Below are positions 252-39,522 of a stretch of 64,000 bases of DNA, in pieces. The translations under genes were made by a program, and so were the position numbers. The number at the start of each line of letters is the position of its first letter. The stretch's first letter is position 1. Below the pieces are notes generated by a model. That model searched no databases. It was not told the origin of the DNA and saw only the letters and a program-made list of their open reading frames with translations. Source of the stretch: Candidatus Bathyarchaeota archaeon (GTDB taxonomy: Archaea > Thermoproteota > Bathyarchaeia > Bathyarchaeales > DTEX01); NCBI GenBank assembly GCA_018396635.1, contig JAGTQE010000003.1:1-64000 (forward strand), read 5' to 3'.

Positions 252-368
252 TGGTGGGCCGGGCCGGACTTGAACCGGCGACCTTGCAGAAACCTTACTC
301 GGTTTTTCTGCGCCTCCTGGATTTTTATCCGTCAGGCAGACGTCCTAACCAAGCTAGACGACCGGCCC
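252..368 (-). tRNA. tRNA-Val(GAC) with two introns; CCA encoded
   Basis: On the minus strand the acceptor 5' side GGGCCGG (368-362) pairs with CCGGCCC, followed by discriminator A (255) and an encoded CCA (254-252). The T arm is GCCGG-TTCAAGT-CCGGC and the D arm has GTCT/GGAC. The anticodon stem TCTGC pairs with GCAGA only after a 17-nt intron (313-329, one-base ambiguity) is removed after position 37, giving loop CTGACGC with anticodon GAC. A second, 22-nt intron (284-305) lies after position 44 in the variable region; its removal leaves the standard AGGTC. Both junctions have a 4-bp central helix flanked by 3-nt bulges (CCTG/CAGG and GCAG/CTGC). The mature length is 75 nt plus CCA. Confidence 0.88.
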
Positions 369-28878: not shown

Positions 28879-31800
28879 TTACGCCCTCTCCTTCAATCTA
28901 AGTCTTGGCGCAATACATAAGCTCATTAACTCCTGAAGGAGGAGCTTAAACGCGTATGATACTGCAACCGGCGAGACTTTAGCCTTATCACCACAGAGAT
29001 GGCACACATATTTGCGTTGTCTCATATCATAGTACGCCATGAAGCCACAGTTTTCACAGACATATATTACGTATTTATCTGACTCCTCGAGGAGCCTATC
29101 CTGGAGGAGGAGGGCCGCGCCATGCCCAATTAGGCAGTCCCTCTCCATCTCGCCGAAGCGTAGCCCGCCTCCCCTCGCCCTACCCTCGGTCGGCTGTCTC
29201 GTTAGCATCTGAACCTGGCCCCTCGCCCTCGCATGAATCTTGTCGGATACCATGTGGTGCAGCTTCTGATAGTATACTAGTCCAATAAATATGTCCGCCA
29301 CATATTTCTCTCCAGTTACACCATTATACAGAACCTCACGGCCAGTATAGCTGAAGCCTAGATTTACAAGCATCCGCTTTAAGATTTCCCCACGCCTCTC
29401 GCCTACAAATGGTGTTCCATCCATAAAATCGCCCTTGAGCGCAGCTATTTTGCCAGCCATAGACTCTAGGAACTGTCCAATAGTCATCCTTGATGGTATG
29501 GCGTGTGGATTAATTATTACGTCTGGGACGACTCCATCAACGCTAAACGGCATATCTTCCTGCGGCACAATCATCCCTATAACGCCCTTCTGCCCATGTC
29601 TTGAGGCAAACTTGTCACCCAGCTCTGGGATGCGTTCATCCCTAACCCTAACCTTCACAAGCTTGTTCCCCTCATTAGTCTCCGTTATAAAGACGGCGTC
29701 AACTATACCCTTCTCAGACGGCCTCATCTCAATCGATGAGTCTCTCATGGTTGGGCCCTTAACCTCAAACTCCTTATATTCTTCAAGGAATCTCGGCGGA
29801 CTAACTCTGCCTATCAGGACGTCTCCGCCAGAAACCTCTGTCTCCAACCTCACTATTCCATCTGCTTCGAGGTGGCGGTAATACTGCTCTCCGCGGAAGC
29901 CTCTTATTCCAGGCTCTGGAACAGTTAGCTGATCCTTTAAGCCACCTAAATATTGGCGGCACTCAGCCTCATATAGCCTATAGAATGTAGAGCGGAAGAG
30001 ACCACGCTCTATAGAAGCCTTATTGATGATTATAGCGTCCTCCATATTATATCCTTCATAGGATAAGACAGCTACAACACAGTTTTGCCCGGAGGGCCTA
30101 AGATCATATCCTATAATCTCCATGGGTTTAGTTCTAACGAGGGGTCTTTGTGGATAATGTAGGATATGGGCCCTTGAGTCAACCCTGAGCGAGAAGTTTG
30201 AAGCGTAAACTCCTAAGGCTTGCTTCGCCATCGCAGACTCATATGAGTTACGCGGGGACTGGTTATGTTCAGGGTAGGGTATTAGGGACGCGCAGATTCC
30301 AAGGATCCCGTAGGGCGTTAACTCAAGGTGGGTGTGCTCTGGTGTTAGGTCTTCCGGATATAGGGCGATATAGGCATTCTCCTCTTCCTCGGCATCCAAA
30401 TACTCGATTATACCATTCTTTATTAGATCGCTCCAGGTCCACTCTTTGGAGAGAATCTTCTCAACATGCTCTTTCTTCAGTTTAGGCACTCCATTCTCAA
30501 CTATAATAAGCGGCCTACGTATTCTACCCTCATCACAGTTAACATACACTTCGCGTTTAACACCATAGGCTTCGGAGAAATACGCTATGTTAATTTCAGA
30601 CGATATTTCACCCATTCTCCTTGCCCTTCTCACTTCATTGACAAGCGCCTCTGGATCGTCACAATAGCCTATGGGAACCCCGTTGACAAATACCTTTGTG
30701 CCTGTAGCCCTAAGCCTATCATCAGCTTCAAGCAGCGGGACAACTCCACGCTTATACAGCTCACGCTTAACTTTCTCCGGGTCTACGCCAATAGATAGCG
30801 AAGCCGATAGAGCCAAATTCTTAACTAACCCGCAGTTAGCGCCCTCAGGGGTTTCATTTGGACATAACCTGCCCCAATGCGTGGCGTGTAGATCCCTAGC
30901 CTCAAAGTTAGGCTGGCTCCTGCTTAGCGGTGACTGAACCCTACGCAGATGGCTGTAGGTGGATATCAGATTTGTCCTGTCAAGGAGCTGCGTTATGCCA
31001 ACTTTACCCCGACCCCAGTTGCCAGTCGCCAGGGCGTGCTGGAGCTTCTCAGTTATTATTCCAGGCCTAACAGCCACCGAGACGCTTACCATACGTTTCT
31101 TCGAACCCATCCTCTCAAGCTGATACTTAATGTCACGGCAGAGGTTCCTGAAAGCCACGCGGAACAAGTCGGCGAGGAGCGGGCCGGCTAGCCTAAGTCT
31201 CTTGTTCTTAACGTGGTCTTTGTCGTCTGGCTTACGCCTACCAAGCTTTAGCTCAATAACCCTAGCCGCCATCTCGCCGAGCAGAATTGCCTTCTCAATT
31301 CTCTTCTTAGGAGACCTTCCAACATGGGGCAGAAAGTTTCTGTCTAAAAGGAACTCGGCCCTTTGTATACGATAACTCTTTACTTGACCGTGCGCTATTC
31401 TATTGCCAATGTAAAGGAGCGCATCCTCAACAGTATTCACTCCAGCAGCATCTTCGAATGAGGGCTCCAACTCACTCTGGATAGTCTTGTCCAATGAGAC
31501 TGCTTCAGCTATTTCCTTATCAGTTTCAAGCCCTAAGGCCCTCATAAGGACTATGAAAGGTATCTCCGATGGGATTCCGGGAACCGAAACGTACAGCGCG
31601 CCATTAGGCTTCATTCGAACCTCGATTCTCGCCCTAAAGCCAACGGTGGTCGAGAATATTTTAGCCCCATATATTGGCGTAGACCCTTTAATTTCCACGT
31701 CTGTAAGTATACGGTTTGGGGCTAAATCCTCGAGGGCAACTATAACCCTCTCAGATCCATTAATTATAAAGTAGCCTCCAGGATCTAGGGGGTCCTCACC

Positions 31801-32247
31801 CTGCCTTATAATTTCCTCTTCAGATAAGCCGTATAGGTGGCAATATTTAGACTTGAGCATCGTCGGTATATCGCCTATGTATACGATTTCCTTCTCAATC
31901 TCTCTATTGCCAACAACCTGAATCATCTCAACAGATATAGGCATAGCATACGTCAGATTTCTTAAGCGCGCCTCCATGGGATATATTTCGCGCCGTGTGC
32001 CGTCAACCTCAGTAACATATGGGCCATATATTACGCCATTCTCGGTCTCCCGCGCAATATAAACCTTGCCAAACTTTATCTTATATGGACCCTCCGGAAC
32101 CTCTATCTCTATTTCGCCAACCTCATCCACAATCTCCTGAAGACCATGCTCAATAAATTCATTATAGGAGTCAAGGTGCTGCCTAACGAGGCCCTTCTCT
32201 TCAAAGAGCGATTTAAAAACCGTAAAAGCGTCTTCTGGACTAATCAA
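28879..32247 (-). CDS. rpoB: RNA polymerase subunit B, one chain
   Basis: The 1122-residue protein unites B'' and B'. It has LRRVQSPLSRSQPNFEARDLHATHWGRLCPNETPEGANCGLVKNLA, GDKFASRHGQKGVIG with its catalytic-site Lys/Arg, and a C-terminal zinc ribbon CENCG...CHLCG. The start is TTG 32247. An rpoH gene, often directly upstream in archaea, is not seen in the 220 bp between rpoB and the tRNA-Arg gene. Confidence 0.97.
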   Translation of the reverse strand: MISPEDAFTVFKSLFEEKGLVRQHLDSYNEFIEHGLQEIVDEVGEIEIEVPEGPYKIKFGKVYIARETENGVIYGPYVTEVDGTRREIYPMEARLRNLTYAMPISVEMIQVVGNREIEKEIVYIGDIPTMLKSKYCHLYGLSEEEIIRQGEDPLDPGGYFIINGSERVIVALEDLAPNRILTDVEIKGSTPIYGAKIFSTTVGFRARIEVRMKPNGALYVSVPGIPSEIPFIVLMRALGLETDKEIAEAVSLDKTIQSELEPSFEDAAGVNTVEDALLYIGNRIAHGQVKSYRIQRAEFLLDRNFLPHVGRSPKKRIEKAILLGEMAARVIELKLGRRKPDDKDHVKNKRLRLAGPLLADLFRVAFRNLCRDIKYQLERMGSKKRMVSVSVAVRPGIITEKLQHALATGNWGRGKVGITQLLDRTNLISTYSHLRRVQSPLSRSQPNFEARDLHATHWGRLCPNETPEGANCGLVKNLALSASLSIGVDPEKVKRELYKRGVVPLLEADDRLRATGTKVFVNGVPIGYCDDPEALVNEVRRARRMGEISSEINIAYFSEAYGVKREVYVNCDEGRIRRPLIIVENGVPKLKKEHVEKILSKEWTWSDLIKNGIIEYLDAEEEENAYIALYPEDLTPEHTHLELTPYGILGICASLIPYPEHNQSPRNSYESAMAKQALGVYASNFSLRVDSRAHILHYPQRPLVRTKPMEIIGYDLRPSGQNCVVAVLSYEGYNMEDAIIINKASIERGLFRSTFYRLYEAECRQYLGGLKDQLTVPEPGIRGFRGEQYYRHLEADGIVRLETEVSGGDVLIGRVSPPRFLEEYKEFEVKGPTMRDSSIEMRPSEKGIVDAVFITETNEGNKLVKVRVRDERIPELGDKFASRHGQKGVIGMIVPQEDMPFSVDGVVPDVIINPHAIPSRMTIGQFLESMAGKIAALKGDFMDGTPFVGERRGEILKRMLVNLGFSYTGREVLYNGVTGEKYVADIFIGLVYYQKLHHMVSDKIHARARGQVQMLTRQPTEGRARGGGLRFGEMERDCLIGHGAALLLQDRLLEESDKYVIYVCENCGFMAYYDMRQRKYVCHLCGDKAKVSPVAVSYAFKLLLQELMSLCIAPRLRLKERA

Positions 32248-32468: not shown

Positions 32469-32599
32469 CTCCAACTCCGCAGGCCGACGTCATAATCCTG
32501 GCTAGACCACGGGTCCATGGGCCTGAAACATTTAGGCCTTTATATTTTGGCGGACCCGGCGGGATTTGAACCCGCGACCTCCGGCTTTCTGCGCTGGAG
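32469..32599 (-). tRNA. tRNA-Arg(GCG) with 3' half before 5' half (permuted or tandem split)
   Basis: On the minus strand the 3' half comes first: position 38 (32586), anticodon stem GCCGG, variable AGGTC, T arm GCGGG-TTCAAAT-CCCGC, acceptor CGGGTCC, discriminator G and encoded CCA (to 32548). After 31 bases the 5' half follows: GGACCCG (from 32516), D arm, stem TCGGC and loop bases CTGCGG ending at 32477. Joined at 37/38 they give a 76-nt tRNA with loop CTGCGGA, anticodon GCG, and a 7-bp acceptor stem. The outer ends pair as GTTGGAG (32475-32469) with CTCCAGC (32599-32593). With the central CTGC/GCAG helix and 3-nt bulges GGA and AAA this makes a textbook bulge-helix-bulge. The span given includes the outer helix. 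Confidence 0.9.
32539..32547 (-). promoter_or_regulatory. TATA-like element in the linker between the tRNA-Arg halves
   Basis: AAATATAAA on the minus strand is centred about 26 bases before G1 of the 5' half (32516), the right distance for an archaeal promoter. It may be chance in an AT-rich linker. If real, the 5' half could be transcribed on its own. The linker also has a GGCCT/AGGCC hairpin with a 9-nt loop. Confidence 0.3.
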
Positions 32600-32631: not shown

Positions 32632-32640
32632 AATATAAAT
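32632..32640 (-). promoter_or_regulatory. TATA box upstream of the permuted tRNA-Arg
   Basis: ATTTATATT on the minus strand predicts a transcription start near 32610, about 10 bases before the outer BHB helix (32599). This supports a transcript that begins with the 3' half. Confidence 0.5.
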
Positions 32641-32688: not shown

Positions 32689-34131
32689 TTAGAGACCTAT
32701 TTCCCTTAAGAGCCCGTTTATACAGTCCTTTATTGATTGTAGGAGGGGGTGCTTAATTTTTGTGGAGCTTAAGCTCTCCAGCCTTTCAATCCTGAAGAAT
32801 AGGGGTGGGTGAGGGTCTAATCCAAGCCAACTGCCAACTCTCCCAGATGTCTTCTCAAGCCACAGGCGCCTATAGCCTATCTTTCTTAAAGCGTCAGCCA
32901 GGGCATGCGATTTTTCAAGTATGAGGGCTGCCTCGAGATCCGCTCTAGCCTCAAAAAACTTCGCTACAAAATATATTAGGCTCAGAGCGAAGATGACATA
33001 AAAGAAGCCAAATATCATTATAAATGGCAGGAGGATATACCATCTAAATAAATATTCAGCTGACGTTATCATGAAGAGCATGAGCGGATCTCTACCTTTA
33101 ACGTGGCTCATCTCATGACCAATAACTGCTGCTATCTCTTCCTCATTCAGCTGGATTAATAGCCCAGTAGTTATTAGGATCAGGCTAAAGCGGGGCGAGG
33201 GGCCCGTGGCAGCAGCATTAGGAATTATAATATTTGCTATTCTAACCTTAGGAATTGGCATTTCAAATTTGCCGGCAACCATCTTAACTATGTCGTAGAC
33301 GTTTATGCTTTTCACTAGTAGATTTTCAGGCTTAATTATTATGCCATGCTTTAAGAAGACTTCTTGAACCGCTTGAAGGTCGATGGGTCTTCCAAGGGCC
33401 AGGGTTCTCTCATAAATTTCCTTCTTGATCTGGAGAAGCCGCTCCCTAGAGTAGTTCTGCCTAATAAAGTCAAATTCTTCTTGAGGGATATGATATTGAA
33501 GCACATACACCGTAGGCGAGTCCTCAGTGATCGGCCAATCTCCCATCTGCATGACTATTTTATCTGAGAACAGTACTAGGATGAACTGTGATAGAACTAG
33601 GACAACTGGTGCGTATGCTGGTCCGACTACAGCAAACACCAGGTAGCTGAATAGTATAAAGATGACGAAGAGGAGAAGCATATTTCCAGTGAAGATCTGG
33701 CTGAGAATCTTCTTCCTCCTTGTTAGCATCTTCTCGCCTGTTAGATGTTTGCCTGGAACCCAGGCGAAGTATAAGGTCGTCCTTCTAATTTCATCCTCAA
33801 ACATCTGGAATATAATCATTAGATCTTCCTTTATTCTATTCAGAACCTTTGGGGGGAAGTTGTAGCCGTAGGGTCTCATCCTCACTTCGAAAGGATCTCC
33901 GGTAGTGATCTCAACGTCAACATACCAGGAATCCGATCCAAGCAGGGTGAAGGCTAATGTTTCTCTCCCATTAATAATCCACCGCCTAACATTCGCAAAA
34001 CGATAGTAAAAGGGCACAATATACTTCCTATATACATATATTAAGAGATCGTGATAATAGGCTGGCGAGACCTCTGTATGAACCTTAAATGAGAATTCTT
34101 CAAGATCTTTTAAAATCTCCATCCCCATCAT
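32689..34131 (-). CDS. M48-family membrane metalloprotease (HtpX/Ste24-like)
   Basis: The 480-residue protein has the zinc protease motif VIGHEMSHVKGRDP (HExxH) with a downstream Glu in FFEARADLEAALI as the third ligand. Before it are two hydrophobic segments (about residues 155-200), and after it two more (ITSAEYLFRWYILLPFIMIFGFFYVIFALSLIYFVA). The N-terminal 150 residues are a soluble domain that I do not recognise and are unusual for HtpX, which is near 300 residues. It likely degrades damaged membrane proteins. Confidence 0.85.
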   Translation of the reverse strand: MMGMEILKDLEEFSFKVHTEVSPAYYHDLLIYVYRKYIVPFYYRFANVRRWIINGRETLAFTLLGSDSWYVDVEITTGDPFEVRMRPYGYNFPPKVLNRIKEDLMIIFQMFEDEIRRTTLYFAWVPGKHLTGEKMLTRRKKILSQIFTGNMLLLFVIFILFSYLVFAVVGPAYAPVVLVLSQFILVLFSDKIVMQMGDWPITEDSPTVYVLQYHIPQEEFDFIRQNYSRERLLQIKKEIYERTLALGRPIDLQAVQEVFLKHGIIIKPENLLVKSINVYDIVKMVAGKFEMPIPKVRIANIIIPNAAATGPSPRFSLILITTGLLIQLNEEEIAAVIGHEMSHVKGRDPLMLFMITSAEYLFRWYILLPFIMIFGFFYVIFALSLIYFVAKFFEARADLEAALILEKSHALADALRKIGYRRLWLEKTSGRVGSWLGLDPHPPLFFRIERLESLSSTKIKHPLLQSIKDCINGLLREIGL

Positions 34132-34606: not shown

Positions 34607-35182
34607 TTAAAAGTTGAGGCGTGAAAGGGAGTAGTATACTATTTCACCTCTCCTATTAATTACGGCCAATATTAAAGTCTTCTTTAGATTTTGAGCTTGC
34701 ATCAGTATCTGCGCTAATCCCTCTATGGAGAGAGACATGCCCTCATATATGCCGTAGACTAGATAGTCTGCCGAATCCTTACTGTATTCTCCTCTTTCGT
34801 AGAGGCGGAAGTCTGCGCCTAGTCCGAAGCCTTCCCGAACAACATACCCCCTACTCCTTAAATCTCGGTAGATAAGATATTTTATCCAAGCGTTCTTCTC
34901 AATAGCCTTATACTTCTCTAGCAGTTCTTGGAAGCCGACTTGTTTGCCAGTCTTCTCGTCTATCACTCTAATTAGTCCTTTTCCGCATAGGTACATGGCT
35001 TCATAGAACGTCAATAATAGGCCTTTATCCTCATGTATCCCATAGCCCCTCTGAGATAGCCTTTCAGAATCCTCCTCAGACCTGATTAAAACCCCGCTGT
35101 CCCTAAGTAAGGCCTCAATAACGTTCCTTTTTGCTTCGATTTCCTTCCTCTCACCATTTAACCCTGACATATGCTTCTCCAC
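34607..35182 (-). CDS. endA: tRNA-splicing endonuclease homologue lacking the catalytic His
   Basis: The 191-residue protein has both EndA domains: the N-terminal part (LLTFYEAMYLCGKGLIRV) and the C-terminal nuclease domain (KYLIYRDLRSRGYVVREGFGLGADFRLYERG...YLVYGIYEG...LKKTLILAVINRRGEIVYY). Of the catalytic triad, the Tyr (in RLYERG) and the Lys (in LKKTLILA) are present. The His expected in the HSxYLV-type motif is not: the segment reads SADYLV, and the C-terminal domain has no His at all. I infer a structural or altered subunit of a heteromeric enzyme. It lies 2 kb from the permuted tRNA-Arg gene and 15 bp downstream of mtnA. Confidence 0.85.
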   Translation of the reverse strand: MEKHMSGLNGERKEIEAKRNVIEALLRDSGVLIRSEEDSERLSQRGYGIHEDKGLLLTFYEAMYLCGKGLIRVIDEKTGKQVGFQELLEKYKAIEKNAWIKYLIYRDLRSRGYVVREGFGLGADFRLYERGEYSKDSADYLVYGIYEGMSLSIEGLAQILMQAQNLKKTLILAVINRRGEIVYYSLSRLNF

Positions 35183-39416: not shown

Positions 39417-39522
39417 GGGCCCGTGGCCTAGCCAGGATCAAAGGCACCGAGCCGAAAAGATGCAGCGGCGTGCACGCCTCCGGAGCCGGAGATCCCGGGT
39501 TCAAATCCCGGCGGGCCCGCCA
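39417..39522 (+). tRNA. tRNA-Arg(CCG) with an intron in the anticodon stem (29/30); CCA encoded
   Basis: The acceptor GGGCCCG/CGGGCCC, D arm GCCT/AGGC, T arm CCGGG-TTCAAAT-CCCGG, variable AGATC, discriminator G and CCA (39520-39522) are intact. The anticodon stem CCGGC/GCCGG forms only if 26 nt (39450-39475) are removed between positions 29 and 30, which gives loop CTCCGGA and anticodon CCG. At the junction a 4-bp helix GCAC/GTGC is flanked by 3-nt bulges CGA and ACG. Cutting each after its second base gives exactly this intron, and GCCG/CGGC forms the intron helix. The mature length is 77 nt plus CCA. Confidence 0.9.

Follow-up and report, generated by a model that had tools for sequence, protein, structure and literature searches.

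A circularly permuted tRNA-Arg(GCG) gene with a 37/38 junction in two genera of Bathyarchaeia

A tRNA-Arg(GCG) gene whose two halves stand in reversed order lies on the minus strand (32599–32469, read directly from the sequence) of a 64,000-nucleotide stretch of Candidatus Bathyarchaeota DNA (assembly GCA_018396635.1, contig JAGTQE010000003.1, positions 1–64,000), here called the window. The stretch belongs to a Bathyarchaeia metagenome-assembled genome (MAG) whose 35 contigs total 1.45 Mb at 99% completeness. The presence of a permuted tRNA-Arg gene is far beyond chance. Its layout is the one known from algae as 'type II', in which the halves are joined between positions 37 and 38, and the locus is very probably a functional circularly permuted tRNA gene. 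To our knowledge, no type II permuted tRNA gene has been described from Archaea before, and for no other archaeal permuted tRNA has conservation across genera been seen.

The minus strand from 32605 to 32465 reads CTAAGA CTCCAGC GCAG AA/AGCCGGAGGTCGCGGGTTCAAATCCCGCCGGGTCCGCCA – 31 nt – GGACCCGTGGTCTAGCCAGGATTATGACGTCGGCCTGCGG/A GTTGGAG CCTA, with slashes at the predicted cuts. An initial annotation, made from the letters of the window, had described the reversed halves, the length of the linker, the 37/38 junction, helices of 7 and 4 bp and two 3-nt bulges; direct reading finds each of these correct to the base. Joined at 37/38, the halves give 79 nt that ARAGORN calls as tRNA-Arg(gcg), in agreement with the complete tRNA and anticodon GCG proposed there. 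In the unrejoined window, ARAGORN reports no tRNA anywhere and Rfam has no gathering-score match at the permuted gene, so standard tools miss it. Unconstrained folding of the strand recovers the outer and central helices, both bulges, the T arm and the acceptor stem. Two such folds have z-scores of −2.5 and −3.05, and equally stable shuffles number 4/200 and 1/200, respectively. The D-stem in the source genome consists of three standard pairs and a T-T only, the anticodon stem is closed by T-G (27–43), and the linker could form a small GGCCU/AGGCC hairpin. Two other identities were rejected: a type IV (59/60) layout as in Thermofilum pendens, given the junction at 37/38, and a tmRNA, as the sub-threshold matches to Rfam tmRNA models reflect the tRNA-like halves and their permuted order.

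The permuted gene appears to be the sole source of its anticodon. A BLAST search of the whole 99%-complete genome with the rejoined 79-nt tRNA revealed no other tRNA-Arg(GCG), which answers at the DNA level the initial annotation's question of an ordinary copy elsewhere. The one other full-length match, 82% identical, is tRNA-Arg(CCU). The remaining Arg genes seen, UCU (C30), UCG (C7:25024) and CCG (window 39417–39522), all have introns. Of the 330 Arg codons counted in seven genes of the window, 72 are CGU or CGC, and tRNA-Arg(GCG) should therefore be needed.

The same arrangement recurs in related genomes, where the initial annotation had suggested looking for it. When the 21 genomes of the family were searched with the rejoined tRNA, the halves were found reversed and close together in 13: 10 of the 11 genomes of the same genus (the source included) and three of the six of a second genus, g2. 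No carrier has an ordinary full-length Arg(GCG) gene in this search. An ordinary contiguous intronless gene with anticodon GCG is present in G011, which belongs to the source genus, and in G018, G019 and G020. Neither form was found by the search in G001, G003, G005 and G017, whose genomes are 66–95% complete.

Two covariance models extend the survey. R1, the permuted precursor modelled from three of these genes, was run over 257 Bathyarchaeia genomes and matched exactly the 13 carriers at 107–132 bits; the next match, at 43 bits, is an ordinary tRNA. The right-hand strands of the acceptor and D-stem are off by one column in the R1 structure; pair counts given below use the correct structure, and the R1 matches are upheld by agreement in position and rank with the separate model R2. 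This generic model represents any tRNA permuted at 37/38; most of the sequences behind it are ordinary tRNAs whose halves had been exchanged in silico. It recovered the same 13 genes at 85–93 bits in the 257 genomes. Its matches to tandem ordinary tRNAs show that the 3'-then-5' order of halves is recognized in other isotypes too. A sample of 398 Thermoproteota genomes included seven of the 13 carriers; R2 found these and no further case, under Infernal's stricter filters and with limited candidates scored per genome, as in all the large R1 and R2 searches, so that weak cases could escape. Those weaker matches that were inspected, the highest-scoring included (up to 43 bits with R1, 40–66 bits with R2), are ordinary tRNAs or tandem pairs; four at contig edges were judged by ARAGORN calls only. 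No permuted order was found in viral contigs.

Structural conservation is strong. The 13 genes are 13 distinct sequences, and 99.0% of their pair cells hold standard pairs. The outer helix, which lies outside the mature tRNA, is 100% paired in all 13. It extends for 7–11 bp before the first mismatch across carriers and is followed by a central helix of 4 bp and two 3-nt bulges. Both-sided changes have occurred in two of its seven pairs, and in the remaining five just one side varies. The score is 0.133; slid partners score no higher than 0.044 and are 34–51% paired. RNAalifold, run unguided on the alignment, recovers the same helices.

The position of promoter-like motifs bears on whether the halves are transcribed together. 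TTTATA-like boxes occur upstream of the outer helix in 13/13 genomes, 11 by a strict regular expression and the other two as GTTTATAG; in the source genome a TTTA[TA] hexamer lies 41 nt upstream of the helix. No linker in any of the 13 genomes contains a TATA-like box by sequence motif. The linkers measure 9, 9, 9, 9, 11, 19, 28, 30, 31, 33, 33, 34 and 34 nt. Judged by motif, then, a single promoter would lie upstream of the 3' half with none between the halves. This pattern favours one transcript over a split, trans-spliced tRNA with the halves made as separate transcripts. A split gene has real precedents: archaeal split tRNAs are likewise joined at 37/38 and have terminal helices, and in Aeropyrum and Thermosphaera split halves are known to lie side by side (PMC3218864). 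It would call for separate promoters, which the 9–34 nt linkers do not offer by motif; the five linkers of only 9–11 nt, which also lack a TATA-like box, could not accommodate a second archaeal promoter, and the halves keep the same strand and a constant order in 13/13 genomes. A split tRNA is thus a very improbable reading.

Less probable still is a non-functional relic of a tandem tRNA-Arg array, the working tRNA-Arg(GCG) being elsewhere or missing from the assembly. Under a published proposal (PMC3978253), permuted genes arise when a gene is duplicated in tandem and the outer halves are lost, and the tail of the gene resembles exon 38–45 with one or two mismatches in eight. Against this reading, exons are near-invariant across the 13 genomes and the outer helix is fully paired, despite linkers and flanks that have diverged, the linker sequences being unrelated between groups; nor did any carrier show an ordinary full-length Arg(GCG) gene in the family search. 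An assembly artefact (inversion, circularization or mis-joined reads), which the initial annotation had raised and which the use of MAGs throughout might invite, is already refuted by conservation across genera, since the arrangement with near-identical halves and diverged, species-specific linkers and flanks stands in 12 other genomes, among them independent Tengchong and Tibet hot-spring assemblies (JZ and QZM bins; PMC8407382) and a genome with an RpoB equal to that of the B71_G16 record (some genomes were equated with named records through identical RpoB).

The order of the halves, their structure, conservation and covariation, the lack of another gene and two genes for subunits of the splicing endonuclease EndA are features of the DNA. 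They are consistent with a pathway of transcription, cutting, ligation, circle formation and end trimming. (i) One transcript would start from the upstream TATA box and comprise leader, 3' half, linker, 5' half and tail. (ii) Leader and tail would pair into a strict bulge-helix-bulge (hBHBh'). (iii) EndA would cut both bulges. (iv) A ligase would join G37 to A38, yielding a circular pre-tRNA that keeps the linker. (v) RNase P and RNase Z would then excise the linker at positions 1 and 76 of the circular intermediate.

Both EndA genes have been located. The window gene lacks the catalytic His as read from its sequence, and its paralogue (G000:C12:53889) has it. In the PDB the paralogue has its best relatives among archaeal EndA chains, 3p1z and 2cv8 being examples, and its alignment indicates that Y-H-K is kept. 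The pair, one member with the catalytic His/Lys and one without, appears to match the pattern of crenarchaeal alpha2beta2 enzymes. Heterotetrameric alpha2beta2 EndA enzymes have broad specificity. In several relatives, too, an endonuclease subunit gene lies within the conserved M48 peptidase neighbourhood, as at 34607–35182 about 2 kb upstream of the permuted tRNA in the window. A single EndA paralogue, of the non-catalytic window type (C1:7564), was found in G011, the genome of the genus with the ordinary tRNA-Arg gene; the catalytic one is possibly missing there through an assembly gap.

Some observations weigh against a functional permuted gene. Pairing within the halves follows in part from their being tRNA, so that the independent structural evidence consists of the outer and central helices (11 bp). 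RtcB is the usual archaeal tRNA ligase; it (PF01139) was not found in the 99%-complete source MAG by a search in which control archaea were positive, and no enzyme for the ligase step was identified in this MAG. Either RtcB falls in an assembly gap, or another ligase acts.

The history of the gene was traced on a tree of RpoB and RpoA'. Three permuted-gene genomes (G008, G009 and G016) are sister to the rest of the genus, with support of 95.6/94 on protein and 99.5/95 on codons. G011, with the ordinary gene, groups with G010, which has the permuted one, at 98.1/97 on codon positions 1+2 and 100/100 on all codons; support on protein is only 54/74. The ordinary gene of G011 (L125; G011:C1:5115–5193) occupies the orthologous locus, downstream of the same M48 gene and a convergent open reading frame (ORF) of about 90 aa, and its intergenic stretch is 82% identical at the DNA level to that of G010. 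From the tree and the orthologous locus, the permuted form is most simply ancestral within its genus and the ordinary form of G011 secondary. The G011 gene has G3-C70 and C49-G65, as do the ordinary genes in G019 and G020, from which it differs at six and three positions; permuted genes carry A3-U70 and G49-C65 and differ from it at 5–10. This likeness hints at replacement by recombination or transfer, not plain reversal, although the counts are small. In g2, the permuted gene lies at other loci, and the family tree places g2 with the ordinary-gene genera; between the two genera there may have been one origin with later losses, two origins or transfer. It is fairly likely that this is a stable, vertically inherited archaeal permuted gene, present in the ancestor of the genus and perhaps of the family, that in G011 an ordinary gene has taken its place at the same locus and that scrambling is thus reversible in nature.

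The tail may hold a trace of the origin. After G37 it reads AGC[CT]GG[AG]G in relatives and AGTTGGAG here, differing from exon 38–45 (AGCCGGAG) at one or two of eight bases in 13/13 genomes. Such likeness is expected under the duplication-and-loss model (PMC3978253), with the tail as a remnant of the second copy of a tandem duplication that lost its outer halves. The resemblance was noticed post hoc and is suggestive only. The corresponding idea for the leader, as a relic of the 5' half of the first copy (exon 25–37), is unsupported, with 7–10 mismatches in 13.

The open-access literature up to 2014 lists 34 permuted tRNA genes, those of algae plus the iMet and Tyr genes of T. pendens, each with its junction at 59/60 (PMC3978253, PMC3218864). 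Three later papers (PMC8450103, PMC12397907, PMC10085705) hold no further ones, and no permuted tRNA for Bathyarchaeia was found in the open-access literature, so that a report elsewhere may have gone unseen. The initial annotation's statement that permuted tRNA genes are known from a few algae and, for other tRNAs, from T. pendens agrees with these sources. The closest likeness is to the algal type II genes of Cyanidioschyzon merolae, Ostreococcus, Micromonas and the Bigelowiella nucleomorph, which share the leading 3' half, 37/38 junction, terminal bulge-helix-bulge, short linker and upstream TATA-like box (PMC3978253). Unlike these, the present gene is archaeal and encodes CCA; its hBHBh' is strict, whereas green algae and the nucleomorph have a relaxed hBH form, and no Arg(GCG) case was found among the published genes consulted. 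The T. pendens genes are likewise archaeal, encode CCA, have a single promoter, which lies upstream of the 3' half, and are the sole copies for their anticodons (PMC3218864, PMC3978253). They differ in that their junction is at 59/60 in the T loop, their 3' piece is 17 nt long and their linkers measure 7 and 1 nt; they also have an extra intron at 37/38 and a bulge-helix-bulge with no central helix, and they are confined to one species, whereas the present gene is common to 13 genomes of two genera. The archaeal split tRNAs of Nanoarchaeum, Caldivirga, Aeropyrum and Staphylothermus resemble it in their junction (37/38 in many) and in a bulge-helix-bulge with a long terminal helix. Their halves are separate transcripts, whereas one short transcript is likeliest here.

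The confinement of earlier archaeal cases to one species made their age, stability and origin unreadable by comparison. One permuted gene can now be traced through 13 genomes, and the ordinary form is at hand for comparison in sister genera and in one species of the same genus. The implication is that an essential tRNA may rely on circularization over long periods. The algal 37/38 layout is extended to Archaea, and both the duplication-and-loss origin and the reverse step become testable. These uncultured, largely hot-spring archaea provide a natural series for how scrambled tRNA genes arise and disappear, and such genes are missed in MAGs by standard tRNA finders.

The features discussed are collected in table 1. 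The permuted gene sits between the M48 peptidase gene and rpoB, all three on the minus strand. The window RpoB is at most 90% identical to named records; the nearest all belong to Candidatus Bathyarchaeota MAGs, and many of these come from hot springs in Tengchong and Tibet, habitats of 57–83 °C (PMC8407382). In relatives, a conserved ORF of about 90 aa (PISPxxLAEAEDVDFVEEKE...) separates the M48 gene from the tRNA; it is not at that spot in the window.

Table 1. Coordinates of the permuted tRNA-Arg(GCG) gene, its predicted processing elements and its neighbours.
Feature	Coordinates	Strand	Basis or remark
tRNA 3' half AGCCGGAGGTCGCGGGTTCAAATCCCGCCGGGTCCGCCA, positions 38–76, CCA encoded	32586–32548	−	direct read; rejoined ARAGORN call
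tRNA 5' half GGACCCGTGGTCTAGCCAGGATTATGACGTCGGCCTGCGG, positions 1–37, anticodon GCG at 34–36	32516–32477	−	direct read; rejoined ARAGORN call
Linker between CCA and position 1, 31 nt	32547–32517	−	direct read
Outer-helix strands, leader CTCCAGC and tail GTTGGAG	32599–32593; 32475–32469	−	7 bp including one G-U
Central-helix strands, GCAG and CTGC	32592–32589; 32482–32479	−	4 bp
Bulge AAA	32588–32586	−	3 nt; predicted cut between 32587 and 32586
Bulge GGA	32478–32476	−	3 nt; predicted cut between 32477 and 32476
TATA-like box ATTTATATT, presumed single promoter, purine-rich stretch upstream	32632–32640	−	sequence motif
M48 peptidase gene, conserved upstream neighbour	32689–34131	−	
rpoB, downstream neighbour	28879–32247	−	likewise in G007, G008, G009, G012, G013, G014, G015
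tRNA-splicing endonuclease subunit, probably structural (beta)	34607–35182	−	PF01974 and PF02778 matches; PDB EndA relatives
ORF of about 90 aa in relatives	L203 5133–5573; L204 6810–7088; L211 6257–6532; L208 8239–8601; L206 253–648		

Other tRNA genes of the source genome are also unusual. Many are interrupted by at least one intron, in several cases at a non-canonical position. The window tRNA-Arg(CCG) gene (plus strand) has more than one intron and is unreported by ARAGORN and by Rfam at gathering score, and in a tRNA-Val(GAC) gene (window 255–368, minus strand) about 40 nt are inserted after the anticodon. The MAG also has two tRNA-Ser(GCT) genes that differ slightly (L014 and L017; G000:C27:2522–2607 and C7:25699–25784), one of which may derive from a short contaminating contig (C27, 3.3 kb).
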